Source: Oryzias latipes
Taxonomy: Eukaryota > Chordata > Actinopteri > Beloniformes > Adrianichthyidae
Direction of reading: 5' to 3'
Assembly (NCBI RefSeq): GCF_002234675.1
Contig: NC_019877.2
Span: 4,681,041-4,745,040, forward strand
DNA length: 64,000 nt
The notes under the pieces are model-generated. The model ran no database searches and had not been told where the DNA came from. It saw only the letters and a program-made list of their open reading frames with translations. This document shows, piece after piece, positions 37,448 to 62,460 of this stretch (the first letter of the stretch is position 1; every line of letters begins with the position of its first letter). The translations under genes were made by a program, and so were the position numbers.

Positions 37448-40400
37448 ATGAGTTTTCCGTGGATCTACGCGGCCCTTGCGTTTGGTTTTGCGGTTTTTTC
37501 GGTTGCCATTGCCGTAAATGGAAACAATTTGGGTAAGTGGTCTGGTTAAAATAATGAAAATAGACAAATGAAAATGTCCAAGACTTGCTTCCTGTCTAAG
37601 TTGATGTAACTGAGCAGTACCGTTAGCCGCTAGCGCCCTCTTGCGGTGGCTACATGACATTTCTGGTGATATAATGTAGATTTTTTGCAGCCATGCCACC
37701 GGCTGCACCCGCAGTTGTCGGCGTTTGCGCTCTGACCGGGATGTTTCTGCTGTGGAGAGACATCAGCTCAAAGCTGAAAGGAGACCAGCGGACGTGGGGC
37801 AGCCTGCTGGGTCAGTATGCGGCCGTGAAGGCCGTGGGGCTGCTGGGGAGGCGGCAGAGGAGGAAGCTGGACCTCGACACCGTCAAGGTGAAGGAGGCGC
37901 AGGAGGAGACGCTGTTGAAGCGGCTGCGTAAAAACGCAGACACATGTTATGGAAGACAGTACAACTTCAGCTCCATAAAAGGTGGGAGTCAAATGGTTTT
38001 ATTTAGATCTCATCTCCAAGCCTTCCTCTTTCCGTAATTCACAACATTTACAACTTTTTTTTTTTTAAGTTGTCACTAAAAAAGTCCCAAGTGAAATATA
38101 AATTACAAATATAAATTAGGTTGTATTTGCATTATAGAATTCCCATCTTACTGATGCTGCTGCACAAAATGAGTAAAGACAATAAAATGAGAGTTTGTTC
38201 CTTTCATGTCTTACACGCCCCTCAATCTCAATTCATAAATAAACTTTTTTTCGTCTTTTTTTTTCTAAAATGGCTGCTTTTAAGTTATTTCCATAGCAAC
38301 CACTTTATTTTCTGGTCATATATTAAATTTACACAATAGTCGAGTGAAAAAAATGTTCGAGCAACAGGAAAACGCCACGCTGACGCCGTTCCAAATCTAC
38401 AAATGTTAAAAACATTTTTTCTAAAGTAGTGCCCCAATGATGCTCAAGGAGTTGGAAGGCGATAGATCAACATCCTTGAGAGGAGTTTACATTTGTGGAA
38501 TGTACTATAAAAATGTGTTCTTTTAAACTTTATGAAGGTCAAAGGTCAACAAAACTTCAGTTGTGGTTTTAAACTTAACCTGGTGGAGTGTGTTGGAAAT
38601 TTTGTGAAGATCACTCAAATCAAACTTTCCCATATTGTGGAAAAAAAATGCGGGACAGAATCGGATACTGTTTGTTTGTCTGTTGTATGTCGTCAGACTC
38701 TGAGGCCTTCCGGGCTCTTCACCCTATAACCACGTATGAGCACTACCGAGAACTCATCCAGCGCATTGCAGCCGGGGAGCAGAAGGTGATCATTGCGGAG
38801 AGGCCGCTGATCCTGGCTATGACCTCTGGGACGTCCGGACCCAGCGCCATGCTGCTCAGCACCAAGGCCACAAACGCAGAGTTCTTCCTCCAGGTGAAGT
38901 CACTTCTTCATCTAGAACTTTCACATGTTCCTGGTAACAACAGTTTTTCCTCCAGGGGGTGGCTGTGTGCTTAGATGTCATGCGAGAAGCCTTTCCTGAG
39001 ACGGACAGCCTTCAGCGCACCGCCAAACTCTTCTACACTCCCACGTTTCGCCAATCGGAGGCTGGCATTCCCATCGGACCAAACTCCTCCACGCCGGCGT
39101 CTTCCCGCCACATGCTCAACCTTTACACCACTCCGGCTCCGGCCTTTGAGGTGCGAGAAGGAGCGGACAGCTGCTCGGCCTCTTGGCTCCTGTTCTTCTT
39201 TCAGGAAAATCCTCTCTGCCCCCTCAGGTTCCCAGTGAGAAGGACACCCTATACCTGCACCTCCTGTTCGCTCTGAAGGATCCCACTGTGGGAACTCTGG
39301 AGTCCAACTTTGCCTCCACGGTTTTTTACGCTTTCGCTGCCCTTCAGGTACACAACTGCAAAAAATCTATCCACGTTATAGTTTGAAAAGAGCCCCACTG
39401 TGAAAATGGATCAAAAGATGATCAAAGTGTTCCCAGTGTTTTTTTTTAAAGTTCTGATCATACCTGTTTTAGCCAAAATCAAAAACCCGTGTCGTTTTCT
39501 AGGAAATTGTTTCTTAAAGAAAGTTTCTAGCTTCATTTCTTGCTTTTACTCAAAGTTTTTTGCATTAACAAGACATTTGGGTTCAGGAGCACGCCATGAC
39601 TTCATTGGGTGTTTTTGTGGAGATTTAATATAGAGGAACACAAATTCATACAATCAGAATCCAGCACTTGGTAACTACAGCAGGTTATATCATGTGTGGC
39701 AAATTTTCCTTAAATATGAATTTCAATCCAGCGAAATCTATGGTTTTTTTTGTTTTTTTTTTTAACAGCAGTTTTCAAGTTTTTCAAAAATGTAAAAGTT
39801 GCATTCACATCGCTTTAGGCAAAGTGTATGGAGTGATTTTTGAGCCATCATTCTAAGTGCAACACTGAGCATGAAACTTAAAATATTTTGCTCTTGAAAT
39901 TCAAAAATAAGTGCAATCCCAACAATTTTCACTCGAGAGAAATTCTCTCTTTTCTGCACTCGTAGCAGAAAAATGTGCAAATAAAGCCAGCCAATCACAA
40001 ACATGGACATGAAAGTTGATGCTGAGTGGTCAGAAATTCTTCCAAGCATCAACTCATTTCTCAACAATATAAACCTGCCCAAGTTAAACGAAGATCAAAT
40101 CACAAATTTAGACTCTCCGCTCTCGTTGTCTGAGCTTCATGAAGCTCTGTCACTTATGCCTAACAGCAAAGCACCAGGACCCGACGGCTTTCCTGCAGAG
40201 TTTTATAAGGAATTCTGGGAACAACTGGCACCAACGTTTTATAAAACGGTAAAATTCATCAATGAAAGCCAATCTCTACCACCTAACATGAACTCTGCCA
40301 ACATTATCCTTCTTCTAAAACCAGACAAAGACCCCACGAGTCCTTCCAGCTATCGCCCCATTTCTTTAATTAATGCAGATGTAAAAATTATCTGCAAAGC

Positions 40401-43400
40401 ACTAGCACAGAGAATAGAAAAAGTCACTCCTCACATAATTCACTTTGATCAAACTGGATTCATCAAAGGCAGACACTCGGATGACAATGTCCGCAGACTC
40501 GTTAACATAATAGACTTTGCCACCATCAAAAACCAGGAAATGACCATACTATCATTGGATGCTGAAAAAGCCTTTGATAGAGTAAACTGGAAGTTCCTCA
40601 TTGCTGCCCTCCATAAGTTTGGGTTTGGAGAATCATTCATCAATTGGATCAAAATATTATATCACAACCCCAATGCATCAGTTAGAACTAATAAACAGAC
40701 TTCCAATAGGTTTTTTCTTGGAAGAGGAACTAGACAGGGTTGCCCACTCTCCCCCTCTCTTTTTGCAATATTTATCGAGCCTCTAGCCGCAGCAATAAGA
40801 CAGAATGAGAATATTAAAGGAATTAAAACCAAACACAGCCATCATAAAATTAGTCTCTATGCAGATGACATATTACTGTTTTTAAGTAATATACATTCTG
40901 TAAATGAAACGGCAACAATCATTAATGAATTCTCTTCTATATCAGACTATTCCATTAATTGGAATAAATCTGTTTTATTACCACTGAACAGTAACGCGGA
41001 GCAAGGACTCACAATACCAGTTAAATCAGGCAATATAAAATATCTAGGTATTTATTTTTCCCCCAAAATATCAGAACTGGTGCAGCTAAACTACACCCCA
41101 TTACTGAAAAACATACAGGACGATCTAACACGCTGGACCAACCTGCCTTTGTCCCTTATGGGCAAGGTAGCCACGGTTAAAATGAAAATCTTACCCAAAG
41201 TTAATTATCTCTTCTCAATGATTCCCACACAACCGCCATTAAAATGGTTCAAAACATTAGACTCATCCATATCAAGCTTTTTATGGAACAATAAACCTGC
41301 AAGAATTAGTCTAAAAACTTTAAAATCTGCAAAAAGCTGTGGAGGATTAGAATTACCTAACTTCCACAATTACTTTCTTGCAAATAGATTACAATATATC
41401 TTAAAATGGTTAAAAAATAATCCAGAAACCAACTCATGGCTAGACTTGGAACAGGCGTTATGTGGAAAGATCAACCTGTCAGATCTTCCATTTATTAGCC
41501 AAATAGTTAAAAAACAGGATTGTTTCAAAAGTATTAATATAAATGCCACTTTAACAGCCTGGTGGGAATTTCTCAAAATATCAAAATCATCAATTCAACC
41601 GTGTAACATGACACCAATCTGGAACAACCCAGACATCCTCATAAACAAAAAAATTATCCACTTCCCAGCCTGGCAAGCAGGGGGCATAAAACAACTAGAG
41701 CACATAATTATTGATAGAAGATTCATAACTCCCCAGGAACTTCAAGACAAACATGGAATATATAACTTCTTGGAATATCAGCAACTTAAATCAATTATTA
41801 CTAAAAAGTTTAAATACAGAGACAACGATTTAAAGCTACCAGATGTAGTTACCACTCTGATTAATTTCTCAATGAATAAAACTCTCTCCAAAATATACAA
41901 ACTTTTATGTAATTTAGATAACAATATTTCACTTCCGACAACAAAATGGGATGCAGATTTGAGCATCAGCACAGATGAAAGCTTTTGGTCAGAACTTTGT
42001 CTAAACACCTTTAAAATGACAAAAAGTCCAAATCTGCAGCTAATCCATTTCAAAACTCTTCACAGAATTTACTACACTGGACAGAGGATGTTCAAGATGG
42101 GTCTCAGCAACTCAGACATTTGTCAGCACTGTGACAGTAATCTACCCGATAATTACATGCATGCACTATGGTTCTGCACGCCTGTCCAGGCTCTCTGGCG
42201 GCAGGTATGTGCCGATCTATCAGTCTGGCTTAAGGTTTCAATCACAGCTTCACCGTCACTTTGTGTGCTTGGTGACATGAGTGCCATCGATGTTGAAGGA
42301 GGATTAGGTTCTATCATTTTCATAACTCTTTGCATTGCTAAAAAAACTATTTTAATAAATTGGAAAAGCAAGAAAAATATAAATATAAGTCAACACAGAA
42401 ATCTGCTGCTTGATCATATCAGCTTGGAAAAAATGTCAGCCCAAGGTTCAAGTAACTTTGAAAGAATTCAGTCTCTCTGGTCTCCCATGGCTAACTCCAT
42501 GACTTAGGGGGTGGGGGGGGCCTGGTCGTCGCTGCTCCTTGCCCTTCTGCCGTAGGCCGGGGTGGGGGTCGGGGCCTCCGGGGCCTGGCGGGGGGTGGTG
42601 GGGGCTCCGTTGGTCGGGGGGTCGGGTCCGGCGCCTGGGTGGGGCGGGCTGGGGCGCTGCGTGGTCCTCTGGGCTTGGGTGTGGGGGTGCGTGGTGGGGG
42701 GGTGGGGTGGTGGTCTGGCTTGGCTTGGGGGGGTGGTCCCTTTGCCTGTGCTGGGGGGGGTTGGCGGGGGGCGCTGCCTGGGGGGGGGGCCCAGCGGCGC
42801 TGGATGGGCTTCCCATCTACACCTGGGGCTGGGATCGGCCCTTCCCTGGCTCTGGGGCGGGACGGGGCAACCCTCTTGGGGCCCCCGGTCGCTCCGGGTG
42901 TCATCCGCTTCGGCTGCGGGGTCTGGGGGGGGGTGGGGTGGGGGGTCTTGTCGGCCCTGTCCTGTGGGGGGGCATTCTGGGGGAGGGGGGGGGGCCACTA
43001 TTGATACGGGGCAGGGGGGGTTGACGGGTCGGGGTCTCCGCTGAGGCCATCGGCGGTTTCCCCGGCCGGTTGGCTGCCTCGGCCCCGTCGAGGCCTGACC
43101 AGAGCTCTTCTAGGGCCGGCGTTTGGGGGTGGGGGCCGGGGCTTGCTCCGGGGGGGGCCAACGCTTTCTGGCTCCTCTCTCTCTGTGTGGGGGGGGTGGT
43201 GCTGGGCCTGGGGTGTCGGCGCCTCCGGGGGTGGGGCCCCTGGGCTGGGTGGGCCTGGCCCCCTTGTTGGGGGGGGGGCGGGGGACGGCTGTTTGACCAC
43301 CGGGGGACAGTCTATCAGCTGTCCCCAACTTACCCCCTTCCTCATATAACCTCATAATAGGATGAGGGGGTGGGGGGCTTAGCCTGCGATGGGCCTTGGG

Positions 43401-45150
43401 GGGGGGTTACAAGGCAGTGGCCCCCCTCCTATGGTTGCCGTATGGAGTGGGCCCCCCCTCTTTCGGTTTTATTTGCACCTTAGACATGTAGGGCCCTTGG
43501 TAGGGGGGGTGCTTGGACATCACTGCCAGCAAGCAGCAGATGTCCTCCTAGCACCCTACCCGCCAATTTTAACCGCACCTTAGACATTTAGGGCCCCTTG
43601 GTGGGGAGGGTGAGGGGACGTCACTGTGAGTAATCAGGAGATGTCCCCTTAGTGCCCTACCCGCCAATTTTAACTGCACCCCCCCTTAGTACATACACCC
43701 CTCCCCCCTCAATATATACATCCCAACATAAACGCACACACATGCACACACACACTCTCTCAAACACACATACACGCACACACATTTTGCAAGGAAGGTG
43801 GGACCTGGGACCATCTGTCCCCTGCCTCTTCCCTGGTGGGGGGTACGGGCCCCTTTGCAACGGCGGCCGTGTCCCCGGGGTGCCGGCTTCCTGGGCCCGG
43901 CGGTGCTCTCTCCGCGCGGTGGGGGGGTTCACATTACATCTGAGCCGGGGGTGTTCGTGTCCCTGGGGGGTGGGTTCTGGTCCTCGCTCCTGAGTGCTGG
44001 GCCCCGCCAAATTTCCAACTGTGGCCGAGCCTGGTCGGGCCATATTTACAACACCCCTTGTGGGCCCTCCTTTTTCCCCGGGGTTCCCCCCTCCTGGGCG
44101 GGGGCGGCGGGCCCCTGCCTCGCTCTTCCCTGGACCAACCGTGGGCCGGGCGGATGGCTGCCTGGAGTGCGGAGCGGGTCTCCCTTGGGGGGTCCTGGCT
44201 CGTACCTGGGGTTGGGGCGGGGGGATGCCCGGAACTCCTGGGTGGTGGTGGGGTGCTCGTCTGGGGCTGTGGGCGTCCTTCTCCGGTGGTGCCCTGCGTT
44301 GGGTTCTCCCGGCGCGGCGGGGGGGCTGCTCTCCTGGTCGGGCTGGGGCGGCGCTCTCTTTCCCTCCGTGCCTCCCTGCTCTCTGGCTCTGGGGGCCTTG
44401 CGGCGGCCCTGCTGGCCCTGGCCTGGGTGGCGGGCTTGGTCGCCCGGGCGGTGGTTGTTCCCTGTCGGTTCCCGTGTGGCGTTGGGGGGATTCCGGCTGC
44501 CGCTGCTGGTGCGGTGGGGGTCTTGGGGTGGGGATGGCTGGGCACTCTCCCTCCTTCTTTTCACGTTCCACCATCCATTTTAGAAGAACATAAACACTCA
44601 CCTGGGCACAGGTGTTAGCTCACCTTTGTACTAACAGTTTGCATGACTGAATGACTGAAATATTTCACATTAGTTGGATTTAAGGCATAAGTATGCGTGT
44701 GAACACTATCTGTTTTGTGTACATGTCGACAGGTGGACATTTTTGCAACTAACAGGTGTGTTTATAACATTTGAGTGTGTGTGTGGACAGGCTCCGCCCT
44801 TTTTGTACTACATTTGAACCTTACCGTAATGATTAACAACCAGTAAACTTGTTGCTTTATGCTGCTTCATGGTCTTACCCCCCTTCCCCTCCTGTTTTCA
44901 CCCTCCTACCCCCCCCTCTCTCTAACATCCCTCTCTCTTCTTCCCCTCTTTCCTTTTCCGTCCGGTCCAACACCAAAGATTTTCAGACATGTTTGAAATT
45001 AATAAAGGTTGGCCTCAATTACAAAAGGGGTTTATTCAGGCATACCTTTGGTTTGTCTGAAGATTAATAACCCCTCTTGTTAAAGTAAAATATGTCCAAC
45101 CCAAGAGGCCCTCAGCTCTCATCTGACTGCCCAGTTGTTGGACAGGACAA

Positions 45151-45188
<38 letters not shown>

Positions 45189-48100
45189 AATTCTTCCAAT
45201 CAGCTCGTATACTGGATCCAGTTTGTGTGCGATTGGAAGAATTCCTGACCAATCAATATCATGTCAAGTGCAAAATCCTTTTTTACCGCACAACATTTTT
45301 ACACCCAAAACAGTGATTGTTGCACTTCCACTTTCACTGAAAAGTTCACGTTAAGGTGCGGTTCGGGCTTCCGGGTTAAAAAATCTTGGATTTAGACAAA
45401 TTTCTGCAACCTTTTTCGTGCTCCACGTACAAAATGTGCGGCCAATGAACGCTCGCTGCAAGTTAAACCAACTTTGACCAATCAGGGACTCCCATTTGGT
45501 AGCAGAATCGCATCTCTTAATTCACGGAAGTGCCATTCATTAGAAAATTGGTCATGGAGTAGAAATGAATAATTGCGGTTTGGGTTAAATTATATTAAGT
45601 CTTTCATATGTTGGAATAAAGCTGTGAAAGAAAAAACCTGGAGGTAGATTGAAGACATTTGCACTGCTTGGACATTTCGGACCAAGGCTCTTCCAACTGT
45701 AGGTGGCGGACATGCGCTAGTAAACAATAGAAAAAGAAGAAGAAGCCCCTCCCTGCTCGTCTAGTGTGAACACCGAGGTCTATACTTGTGCTCAAGAACC
45801 CGCGTTTGTCACGTTCTTGTCCGTAGCTTTAAAGAATTGAAATCTGAAGTGCGAATAAACTGCTAGAAACCCAGAATTCTCCCTGACCCACTCAGGAGCG
45901 CTGGCAGGAGCTGGTGGAGGATGTTCACAGCGGCACAATCAGCAGCTCTTTGTCTCTGGAGCCCAAAGTGAGGACCAGCCTGGAAGCTCTCATGAAGCCA
46001 GACCCCCAGAGAGCTGCACAGCTGCAATCCCACTTCCAGGGGGGCTTCAGCGGGATCGCCAAGCGCCTGTGGCCGCATCTTCACCTGGTGCTGGCGGTGG
46101 ACTCGGGGTCGAATCAGATTTACGGGGAAATGCTCAGGGAGCACTACTGCAAAGGGGTTCCTTTCTACTCACCCTTTTATGCAGCAACTGAAGGTAAGAA
46201 CATCCATCACAGCTAAACTATGGGCACAAAACTCTAAATTATTAGTAAAGTAAGTCAAATTAGTCCCGTTTTAACTGTAGCCAGATTTTCATTTGAGCTG
46301 ATATCGAGCACATTGGTGCGTGTGCGCCTCCTGCAGGTCTGATAGGGGTGAACCTCTGGCCTCAGGAGTCCAGGAGACGGTACCTGCTGTGTCCACGTTC
46401 CATGTTCTGCGAGTTCCTGCCAGAGAGCAGCCTGGAGGAGGAGACGCCACGAACTCTGCTGATGGAGCAGGTGAAGCAAGGAGAGAGCTACGAGCTCGTC
46501 ATCACCAACGCCTCGGGACTCTACAGGTCAGCCAATGAGAATTCATTAAAAAAAAAAACTTTTTTTTTTTAGATTTAAACAGTTGAATTTTAAAATAAAA
46601 TGAGTGACTGCTGTTAAATCTCTGACTACAGACCGTGTAGAGTCAGACAGAACAGGCAGGAGAAGAAAAATGTGGTTCACAAACTTTTGTTCTCAGTAAA
46701 ACTATCGTAATTGCCGGACTCCAAGCCCCTACTTTTAACCCTGCTGCTTAAACAATCGTGCAGCTAATTTATAGATTTTTTTTCGGGGTTATTCTGATGG
46801 AACAGATGGACGCCTGAGGGGCGGGGGTCCTGCCGAGCAGCTTTGAGATCAGCGTAATAAAACTACGTCTAACATAAATGTAACATTCTGTGATTTTAAT
46901 GAACGAAAGGGAGATTATGGTCATTATTTGTTGTTTCTGGACAAAAGCGATGTTTTATTTTAAAAAGTTAGGCGGAAGATGATCATAAATCAGACGGCTT
47001 TAGCTTAAGGTGGAGGACCCGCTGTGGCAGGTGGAGCAGAGCTGTCAGGAATCCAATAAGGAGGAATGTTGCAGCGGGAAAGTCCTGCAGGAGGAGAGCT
47101 GTTCACCCTGAATACAGAGTCGGACACGCCTCCACCTGTTGGTCGTGTAAACATCCCTTGTTACAGCACGGACATTCGGGGCTTATAGAGAAGTGTGGCC
47201 TATATTTGTACAATAATAAATTTAGTTGGTGGGGCTTATATTCATGTTTGCTTTATAGTCAAGAAATCACGGTATTTTAAAAGTAAAATTTAGCTTCGAC
47301 TTGAAAAAAAAAAACTCAGTAAAACCATAAAATATTTAAGAAGTTCTGTTAAAAATAGATCTTTTAGTGCATTTTCTTTTTCCCCATGATGGAGGAAATG
47401 CAGACCGACTTCCTGAACTGACCTGGCTCCGCCTCCATCAGTTTTCAAACCAACTTAAACAGGAAGTCTGCTGTAAAAAGCAAATCAACATCTGGCTTCA
47501 GAAGCTCGGTGGTTAGGTTTTCATCAATAAAACCGGATTCTGTTATCTTGAGTTTGTTTTAAGACGTTGACACCACAGAACTGGAAACTAATCTCAATTG
47601 AGGCAAATCGACAAACGACCTCACACACAAGTAAAGCAGTTACCAGGTTTTATTAACTTTAGCTTTAGCCTTTTCTAAGACATTCAAGTTAACCAAAAGA
47701 GGTTTTTAGGACACGTTAACACAGGGGTCGGGAACCTATGGCTCGCGAGCCATATATGGCTCTTTTGATGGTCACATGTGGCTCGCAGACAAATCTTTAA
47801 TTATACTTTTTTTTTCATTAGACCAGTCCTTCTCGGGCGCGATGCGATGCCAGAGGCGCGCAGTAGTAGCGGTGCTTAGAGAGAGAAATCTGCGCCAGCG
47901 CTATCAGTTACTATTATCTATTATTTCACAGAGTTTGTACCAGCTGGAAACCTGTGAATTGCCGTGCCTAAAACTACGCGCTCCCGTCTCTGAGGAAGAG
48001 CGCGCAGTTGCGGGGACGGGATGTGTGAGGGAGAAACCAGGGGGGTGGGGCTGAGGTGTTGTGGGGACAGGCAGCAGGTGAATCGCGCAGGGATTGTAAA

Positions 48101-62239: not shown

Positions 62240-62460
62240 AGCGCTAGACCGTGCAAACAAGGGTGACAAATCCAAGCCTTGAGGGCCGGTCTCCAGCTGG
62301 TTTTTCACAAATCCTGCCTTAGCTGCTGTTGCATACCTGGATCAGGTGTGTTTAGCCAAAAAGGAGCTTAAAATGACAGGTTGGCTGGAAAACATGTAGG
62401 ACATGTTGCTCATGTGCGATTCCAGGCCCTCGAGGCCTGGAATCGCACATGAGCTTTCTG
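62240..62460. repeat. Palindromic teleost repeat fragment
   Basis: Begins with CAAGCCTTGAGGGCCGGTCT and CCTGGATCAGGTGTGTTTAG, blocks common in fish DNA transposon relics. It ends in a 21-bp perfect inverted repeat (arms 62408-62428 and 62434-62454, 5-base spacer). Confidence 0.6.

Follow-up and report, generated by a model that had tools for sequence, protein, structure and literature searches.

The window analysed here, a 64,000-nucleotide (nt) stretch of the medaka (Oryzias latipes) genome (contig NC_019877.2, positions 4,681,041 to 4,745,040), contains an L1-type element that apparently lies in an intron of a GHDC-like gene. We are nearly certain that it is an L1-clade long interspersed nuclear element (LINE) of medaka that inserted recently by target-primed reverse transcription (TPRT). 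The anatomy of the element, the duplication of its target, the empty paralogous sites, the near-identical family, and the open reading frames (ORFs) of its relatives were read directly. All positions are counted from the first nucleotide of the window.

The insertion and its target site

The exact 14-mer AGAAATTCTTCCAA matched the 64-kb window twice, at 40032-40045 and at 45186-45199. A preliminary description of this DNA had reported a perfect 14-bp target-site duplication (TSD), and both copies were recovered where it had placed them. The final A of the poly(A) run overlaps the TSD. The features of the insertion, including its 3' untranslated region (3'UTR) and the part encoding the reverse transcriptase (RT), are as follows:

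40017..40045, + strand: left arm of a palindrome (~91 bp), the target of the L1
40032..40045, + strand: 5' TSD AGAAATTCTTCCAA, identical to the 3' copy and supported by paralogous empty sites
40046..45186, + strand: 5'-truncated L1, 5108 nt plus a 33-A tail; compared with full-length relatives, it lacks ~2.81 kb at the 5' end
40048..42507, + strand: remainder of ORF2 (819 codons and a stop), spanning the RT region through the Cys-rich end; matches RVT_1 and human L1 ORF2p
42508..45153, + strand: 3'UTR, 2646 nt
42508-43330 and 43801-44560, + strand: two G-rich, A-poor blocks of the 3'UTR
43475..43680, + strand: two-copy tandem repeat of 101 bp in the 3'UTR
45000..45153, + strand: last 154 nt, shared by the family and predicted to form two hairpins (~45026-45075, ~45093-45144), with the fold compared with shuffles
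45154..45186, + strand: poly(A) tail, 33 A
45186..45199, + strand: 3' TSD AGAAATTCTTCCAA, exact match
45200..45261, + strand: centre and right arm of the palindrome, belonging to a dispersed repeat

Rejoining the flanks with a single TSD copy gave a palindrome of ~91 bp, 80% matched, one of four detected in 58.8 kb with identical settings. A third, imperfect occurrence of the 14-mer, in inverted orientation at 45233-45246, is the opposite arm of this palindrome. Genome searches covered 734,051,031 bases in 25 contigs; they rank the best matches first and are silent on the number of diverged copies. The target palindrome proved to be part of a repeat dispersed in the genome, with 44 candidates of which 40 were scored; related copies are 76-93% identical to the window site. 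Of 29 paralogous copies, 25 lack an L1 and align through the insertion point, extending 14 nt or more to either side; in the other four, the matched stretch was too short to tell. These empty sites indicate that the direct repeat was created by the insertion. A perfect palindrome was also seen at 62408-62454 (21-nt arms, 5-nt loop; coordinates shifted by the removed insert).

The L1 is sense-oriented between two frames matching the Pfam profile of the GH3 family N-terminal domain. The upstream frame (38938-39276) matched profile positions 112-198 with E = 3.4e-4 and 20.4 bits, below the Pfam cut-off of 23.6, and the downstream frame (45887-46216) matched positions 216-304 with E = 1.1e-23. Our reading of the frames suggests a GHDC-like (GH3-domain) host gene with the L1 between its fourth and fifth coding exons. 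The intron number given previously, ghdc intron 5, was not confirmed: the intron would be intron 4, unless a non-coding first exon exists.

The ORF2 frame runs uninterrupted for 819 residues from 40048 and closes with the stop codon at 42505-42507. It contains the RT motifs DAEKAF (starting at 40558), GTRQGCPLSP (40726), and YADD (40858), and CQHC at 42121. The RVT_1 match covered positions 4-204 of 205 (E = 4.5e-42), in line with the earlier claim of an RT frame of about 820 codons with its catalytic motifs. The ORF2 part is rich in A (35.5%) and poor in G (15.3%). The protein comparison covered solved (PDB) proteins, among which human L1 ORF2p was the best relative (residues 424-1178, best E = 2.9e-108); once chains named LINE-1 or RNA-directed DNA polymerase were set aside, the best E was 2.3e-19. 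This result supports the L1 type proposed earlier. Since human ORF2p aligned only over residues 424-1178, the endonuclease half has been lost and the window copy is 5'-truncated.

Relatives in the medaka genome and age of the insertion

The RT part (2462 nt) yielded 2114 genome candidates; the best 40 scored, window included, were 98-100% identical over the whole query. The genome check proposed in the preliminary description therefore found near-identical copies, rather than copies differing strongly from this one. Among the other copies, the closest one compared lies on contig C24 and is 99.77% identical over 3962 nt. It has 19 states in common with the window copy that were absent from six others compared, which places both in a single subfamily. 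Because the C24 copy starts directly after ORF1 and is flanked by a 17-nt repeat of its own, we regard it as a sister rather than the parent. Seven of eight RT parts, window included, reached the same stop in frame, and L005 was frameshifted near its end.

The copies start at varied points, as expected of 5' truncation. Of 18 insertions, the window's among them, 14 were found by script to be flanked by an exact repeat of at least 8 nt; of these, L033 was of low complexity and C3 and L026 had repeats 15-18 nt from the element start. L022 had a repeat of 6 nt, and the script found none in three, two of which (L020 and L035) had repeats visible by eye. The 18 sites, compared by eye, differed from one another, indicating no single fixed target. 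The family thus shows a poly(A) tail and TSDs at non-specific sites, as is typical of L1-clade LINEs, whose TSDs measure roughly 7-20 bp. L026 is a young 5'-truncated copy, apparently inside the RT region of another L1, since RT sequence of an L1 follows directly on its tail. A 3' end of the same family (G000:C19:4770421-4770574) lies ~44 kb downstream of the window L1, beyond the window. Outside the medaka genome, no relatives were confirmed in viral_contigs or genome_contigs, and phages gave no match.

ORF2 was open for 1256 codons, stop to stop, in all four copies that we extended in the 5' direction. An ORF1 frame of 288 codons was kept in the three copies reaching ORF1; the fourth was truncated before it. 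In the copy named C1, ~490 nt separate the two open frames, and Exo_endo_phos (residues 16-239, E = 2.5e-17) precedes RVT_1. The C1 ORF2 matched the human L1 endonuclease chain 1vyb with E = 8.5e-31 and human ORF2p over residues 7-1178 with E = 3.2e-168. The L1-clade ORF1 has a coiled coil, an RNA-recognition motif, and a C-terminal domain of the Transposase_22 type. The C-terminal half of the medaka ORF1 frame may resemble fish L1 ORF1.

The 5' end of one full-length copy gave 414 candidates, and the best 40 scored (query included) were 99-100% identical. At least 16 of the 40 RT copies have such an end 2808-2819 nt ahead of the point where the RT query starts, in the same orientation; this is a lower bound because just 40 5' ends were scored. 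The spacing implies a full length of ~7.9 kb without the tail. Full-length relatives do exist, and no copy was singled out as the full-length master that the preliminary description had proposed to seek. The uniform 5' ends, their linkage to RT copies, and the open ORF2 agree with its suggestion of an active L1 lineage, and the lineage appears to have been recently active. One RT copy (G000:C15:9365856-9370884) has an opposite-strand 5' end 2567 nt away, as expected from either L1 twin priming or a neighbouring copy; it is one possible case of 5' inversion among the 40. An E-box-like CACGTG stands at the extreme 5' end (...CACGTGATGCTGTAG) in all six distinct copies inspected (C1, C3, C18, and L074-L076).

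Two private substitutions were counted in the first 3962 nt of the window copy, compared with seven other copies, and one in its final 1504 nt, compared with 21. The 3'-end alignment used 22 of 30 fetched loci, window among them, and left out eight. A clean alignment kept 16 rows, without the six whose sequence passes out of the element within the alignment, and the count against its 15 other rows was unchanged. In total, three private substitutions in 5108 nt (0.059%) were obtained, one in the RT part and two in the UTR, in agreement with the young insertion claimed earlier.

The medaka strains Hd-rR and HNI differ by 2.455% single-nucleotide polymorphisms and split about 18 million years (My) ago, according to PMC5705604. 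On this calibration, the insertion is ~0.9 My old (Poisson range 0.18-2.5 My). The placement takes the source genome to be Hd-rR. The insertion would then be later than the Hd-rR/HNI split, and it is expected to be absent from HNI, as the estimated age falls well after that split. The age also fits the earlier suggestion that the insertion is possibly still polymorphic. A long-read panel is described alongside the inbred strains in PMC8862245, so the insertion polymorphism of the family is directly scorable.

The G-rich 3'UTR and the predicted hairpins

The 3'UTR of human L1 is far shorter than 2.65 kb. In the medaka element, the two blocks contain 49.5% and 39.6% G and 4.5% and 4.9% A, respectively, with longest A-free runs of 238 and 255 nt. 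The A content drops to 0-1% in some 250-nt windows of the 3'UTR. Given this lack of A, long open frames there are no evidence of genes. Canonical G-quadruplex (G4) motifs numbered eight on the sense strand and zero on the other, compared with a mean of 0.55 and a maximum of four in 500 base shuffles, a weak control because such shuffles break runs of G. The remaining 58.8 kb of the window had one and five on its two strands.

The composition recurs in the family. Block 1 was alike in seven of seven relatives (3.7-4.6% A, six to nine G4 motifs, A-free runs of 172-271 nt). Block 2 was read in 23 of 30 loci, the other seven lacking the anchor word. It contained 4.9-6.6% A in 16 of the 23, window included; the 10-31% A in the other seven is due to copies truncated inside the block, with flank counted in. 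A-to-G editing specific to this insert was rejected, as the relatives have the same composition. Fish L1 elements are said to be AT-rich in PMC7140322, and the word UTR is absent from its main text. No paper on a G-rich 3'UTR in fish L1 was among the matches listed from the open-licence literature.

The terminal 154 nt gave 1167 genome candidates, and the best 40 scored comprised ten identical ends (window included) and others at 98-99%. Folding yielded a z score of -2.57, with two of 200 shuffles as good. Hairpin 1 alone reached z = -3.99, on a stretch picked after viewing the fold. The last 77 nt were 82-95% identical in three further ends among the fetched loci, and the second stem was present in the predicted folds of all four ends. 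Hairpin 1 was weaker in the related end L041 (-18.2 versus -22.3 kcal/mol), which counts against the structure. At tail position 41, a subfamily change replaces G-U by A-U, so that pairing is preserved, whereas pairs are lost through single-copy changes at 74, 101, and 124. The evidence from pair changes is therefore mixed, and the divergence is too small for a covariation test.

A stringent-type LINE needs a 3' tail sequence or hairpin, and its partner short interspersed nuclear element (SINE) has the same tail. At L042:1316-1392 (- strand), an 82% match to the last 77 nt of the L1 alone is preceded by unrelated sequence. It could be an L1-tailed SINE, but TSD-like AATTTTAGGTT on both sides (by eye) suggests that it is probably a short, truncated copy of a diverged L1.

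The predicted folds allow for a possible hairpin-assisted recognition of the template alongside the poly(A). A broader reading, which we regard as rather unlikely, is that the family uses a composite 3' end made of a G-quadruplex-prone, A-free 3'UTR, two terminal hairpins, and poly(A). In this reading, the A-free 3'UTR would shield priming from internal A-rich sequence, and ORF2p would recognise the hairpins together with the poly(A). Whatever its role, the 3' end is the part of the element most deserving of specialist attention. The G-rich 3'UTR and the conserved predicted hairpins offer a testable case for how vertebrate L1s came to recognise their templates by poly(A) instead of by a specific tail.

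Proposed mechanism, alternatives and known systems

The likely course of the TPRT event would be as follows. ORF2 protein provided by a full-length relative may have nicked the lower strand in one arm of the old palindromic repeat, at a pyrimidine/A-rich site that reads GGTC/AGAAAT on the upper strand. The poly(A) end of the L1 RNA would have been primed there and ~5.1 kb copied, with copying presumably halted ~2.81 kb short of the RNA 5' end. Filling in of the staggered break would have left the 14-bp duplication. With reverse transcription halted early, the window copy lacks ORF1 and the endonuclease, and it should not move by itself.

The frame open for 819 codons plus stop could also be read as an old L1 preserved by selection, that is, a co-opted intronic RT gene. 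We give this very little weight, because the non-coding sequence looks no older than the coding sequence (one private change in RT, two in UTR) and because, with many near-identical copies in the genome, youth alone accounts for the open frame. The AATAAA at 45001, ~150 nt ahead of the tail, would suit a 3' transduction in which the L1 proper ends just past this signal and the last ~130 nt are flank of the source locus. This was rejected and retains a negligible probability, since the terminal 154 nt recur across the copies (1167 candidates) and are the family's own 3' end. The identity of 99.8% to the nearest copy would fit a segmental duplication or an assembly artefact instead of retrotransposition. 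Such an origin is just as improbable as transduction: the C24 copy starts elsewhere, just past ORF1, with its own 17-nt flanking repeat, and the 1500 nt upstream of the window element had no match in any of the seven other copies compared.

Several points weigh against a recent TPRT insertion of an L1-clade LINE. Recency was judged from divergence within one genome, and the relatives sampled were the best-scoring ones. A private change may be common to an unsampled sister; the count could then only fall and the insertion would be younger still. The L1 placement was made from matches to solved proteins. The ORF1 frame matched no Transposase_22 in Pfam, giving weak, mostly coiled-coil-like matches below the cut-off, and no ORF1p chain in the PDB. 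A recent TPRT insertion nevertheless remains our strongly preferred explanation.

Swimmer 1 is one of the fish L1 families. Six medaka L1 families with a long ORF2 are listed in Table 3 of PMC4746887, and the present element resembles these L1-clade LINEs by description only. As L1 families with a long ORF2 have already been reported in medaka (the same table), the insertion belongs to a known kind. As an insertion it is ordinary; its G-rich 3' part is unusual. The Tx1 group, according to PMC3747384, comprises L1-clade relatives, some of them target-specific, in contrast to the varying sites of the 18 medaka insertions.

Human L1HS ORF2p (PDB 8sxt/8uw3/9k6g) likewise combines endonuclease, RT, and a Cys-rich end in one ORF2, and L1HS elements show the same poly(A) tail, flanking repeats, and 5' truncation. 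The medaka element differs in its distant sequence, its 2.65-kb 3'UTR with G-rich blocks, its ORF1 frame unrecognised by Pfam, and the gap of ~490 nt between the ORFs of C1. A terminal stem-loop in the 3'UTR has been proposed for human L1 in PMC5135761, so a hairpin in a vertebrate L1 has precedent there. The conserved 3' end also recalls the stringent-type L1-clade LINEs of PMC3747384, to which we do not assign the medaka family. There, monocot 3' ends have a solid predicted RNA structure, and in Chlamydomonas the conserved end is followed by poly(A). If the composite end were real, this vertebrate L1 would stand midway between the stringent plant and algal types and the relaxed mammalian type.

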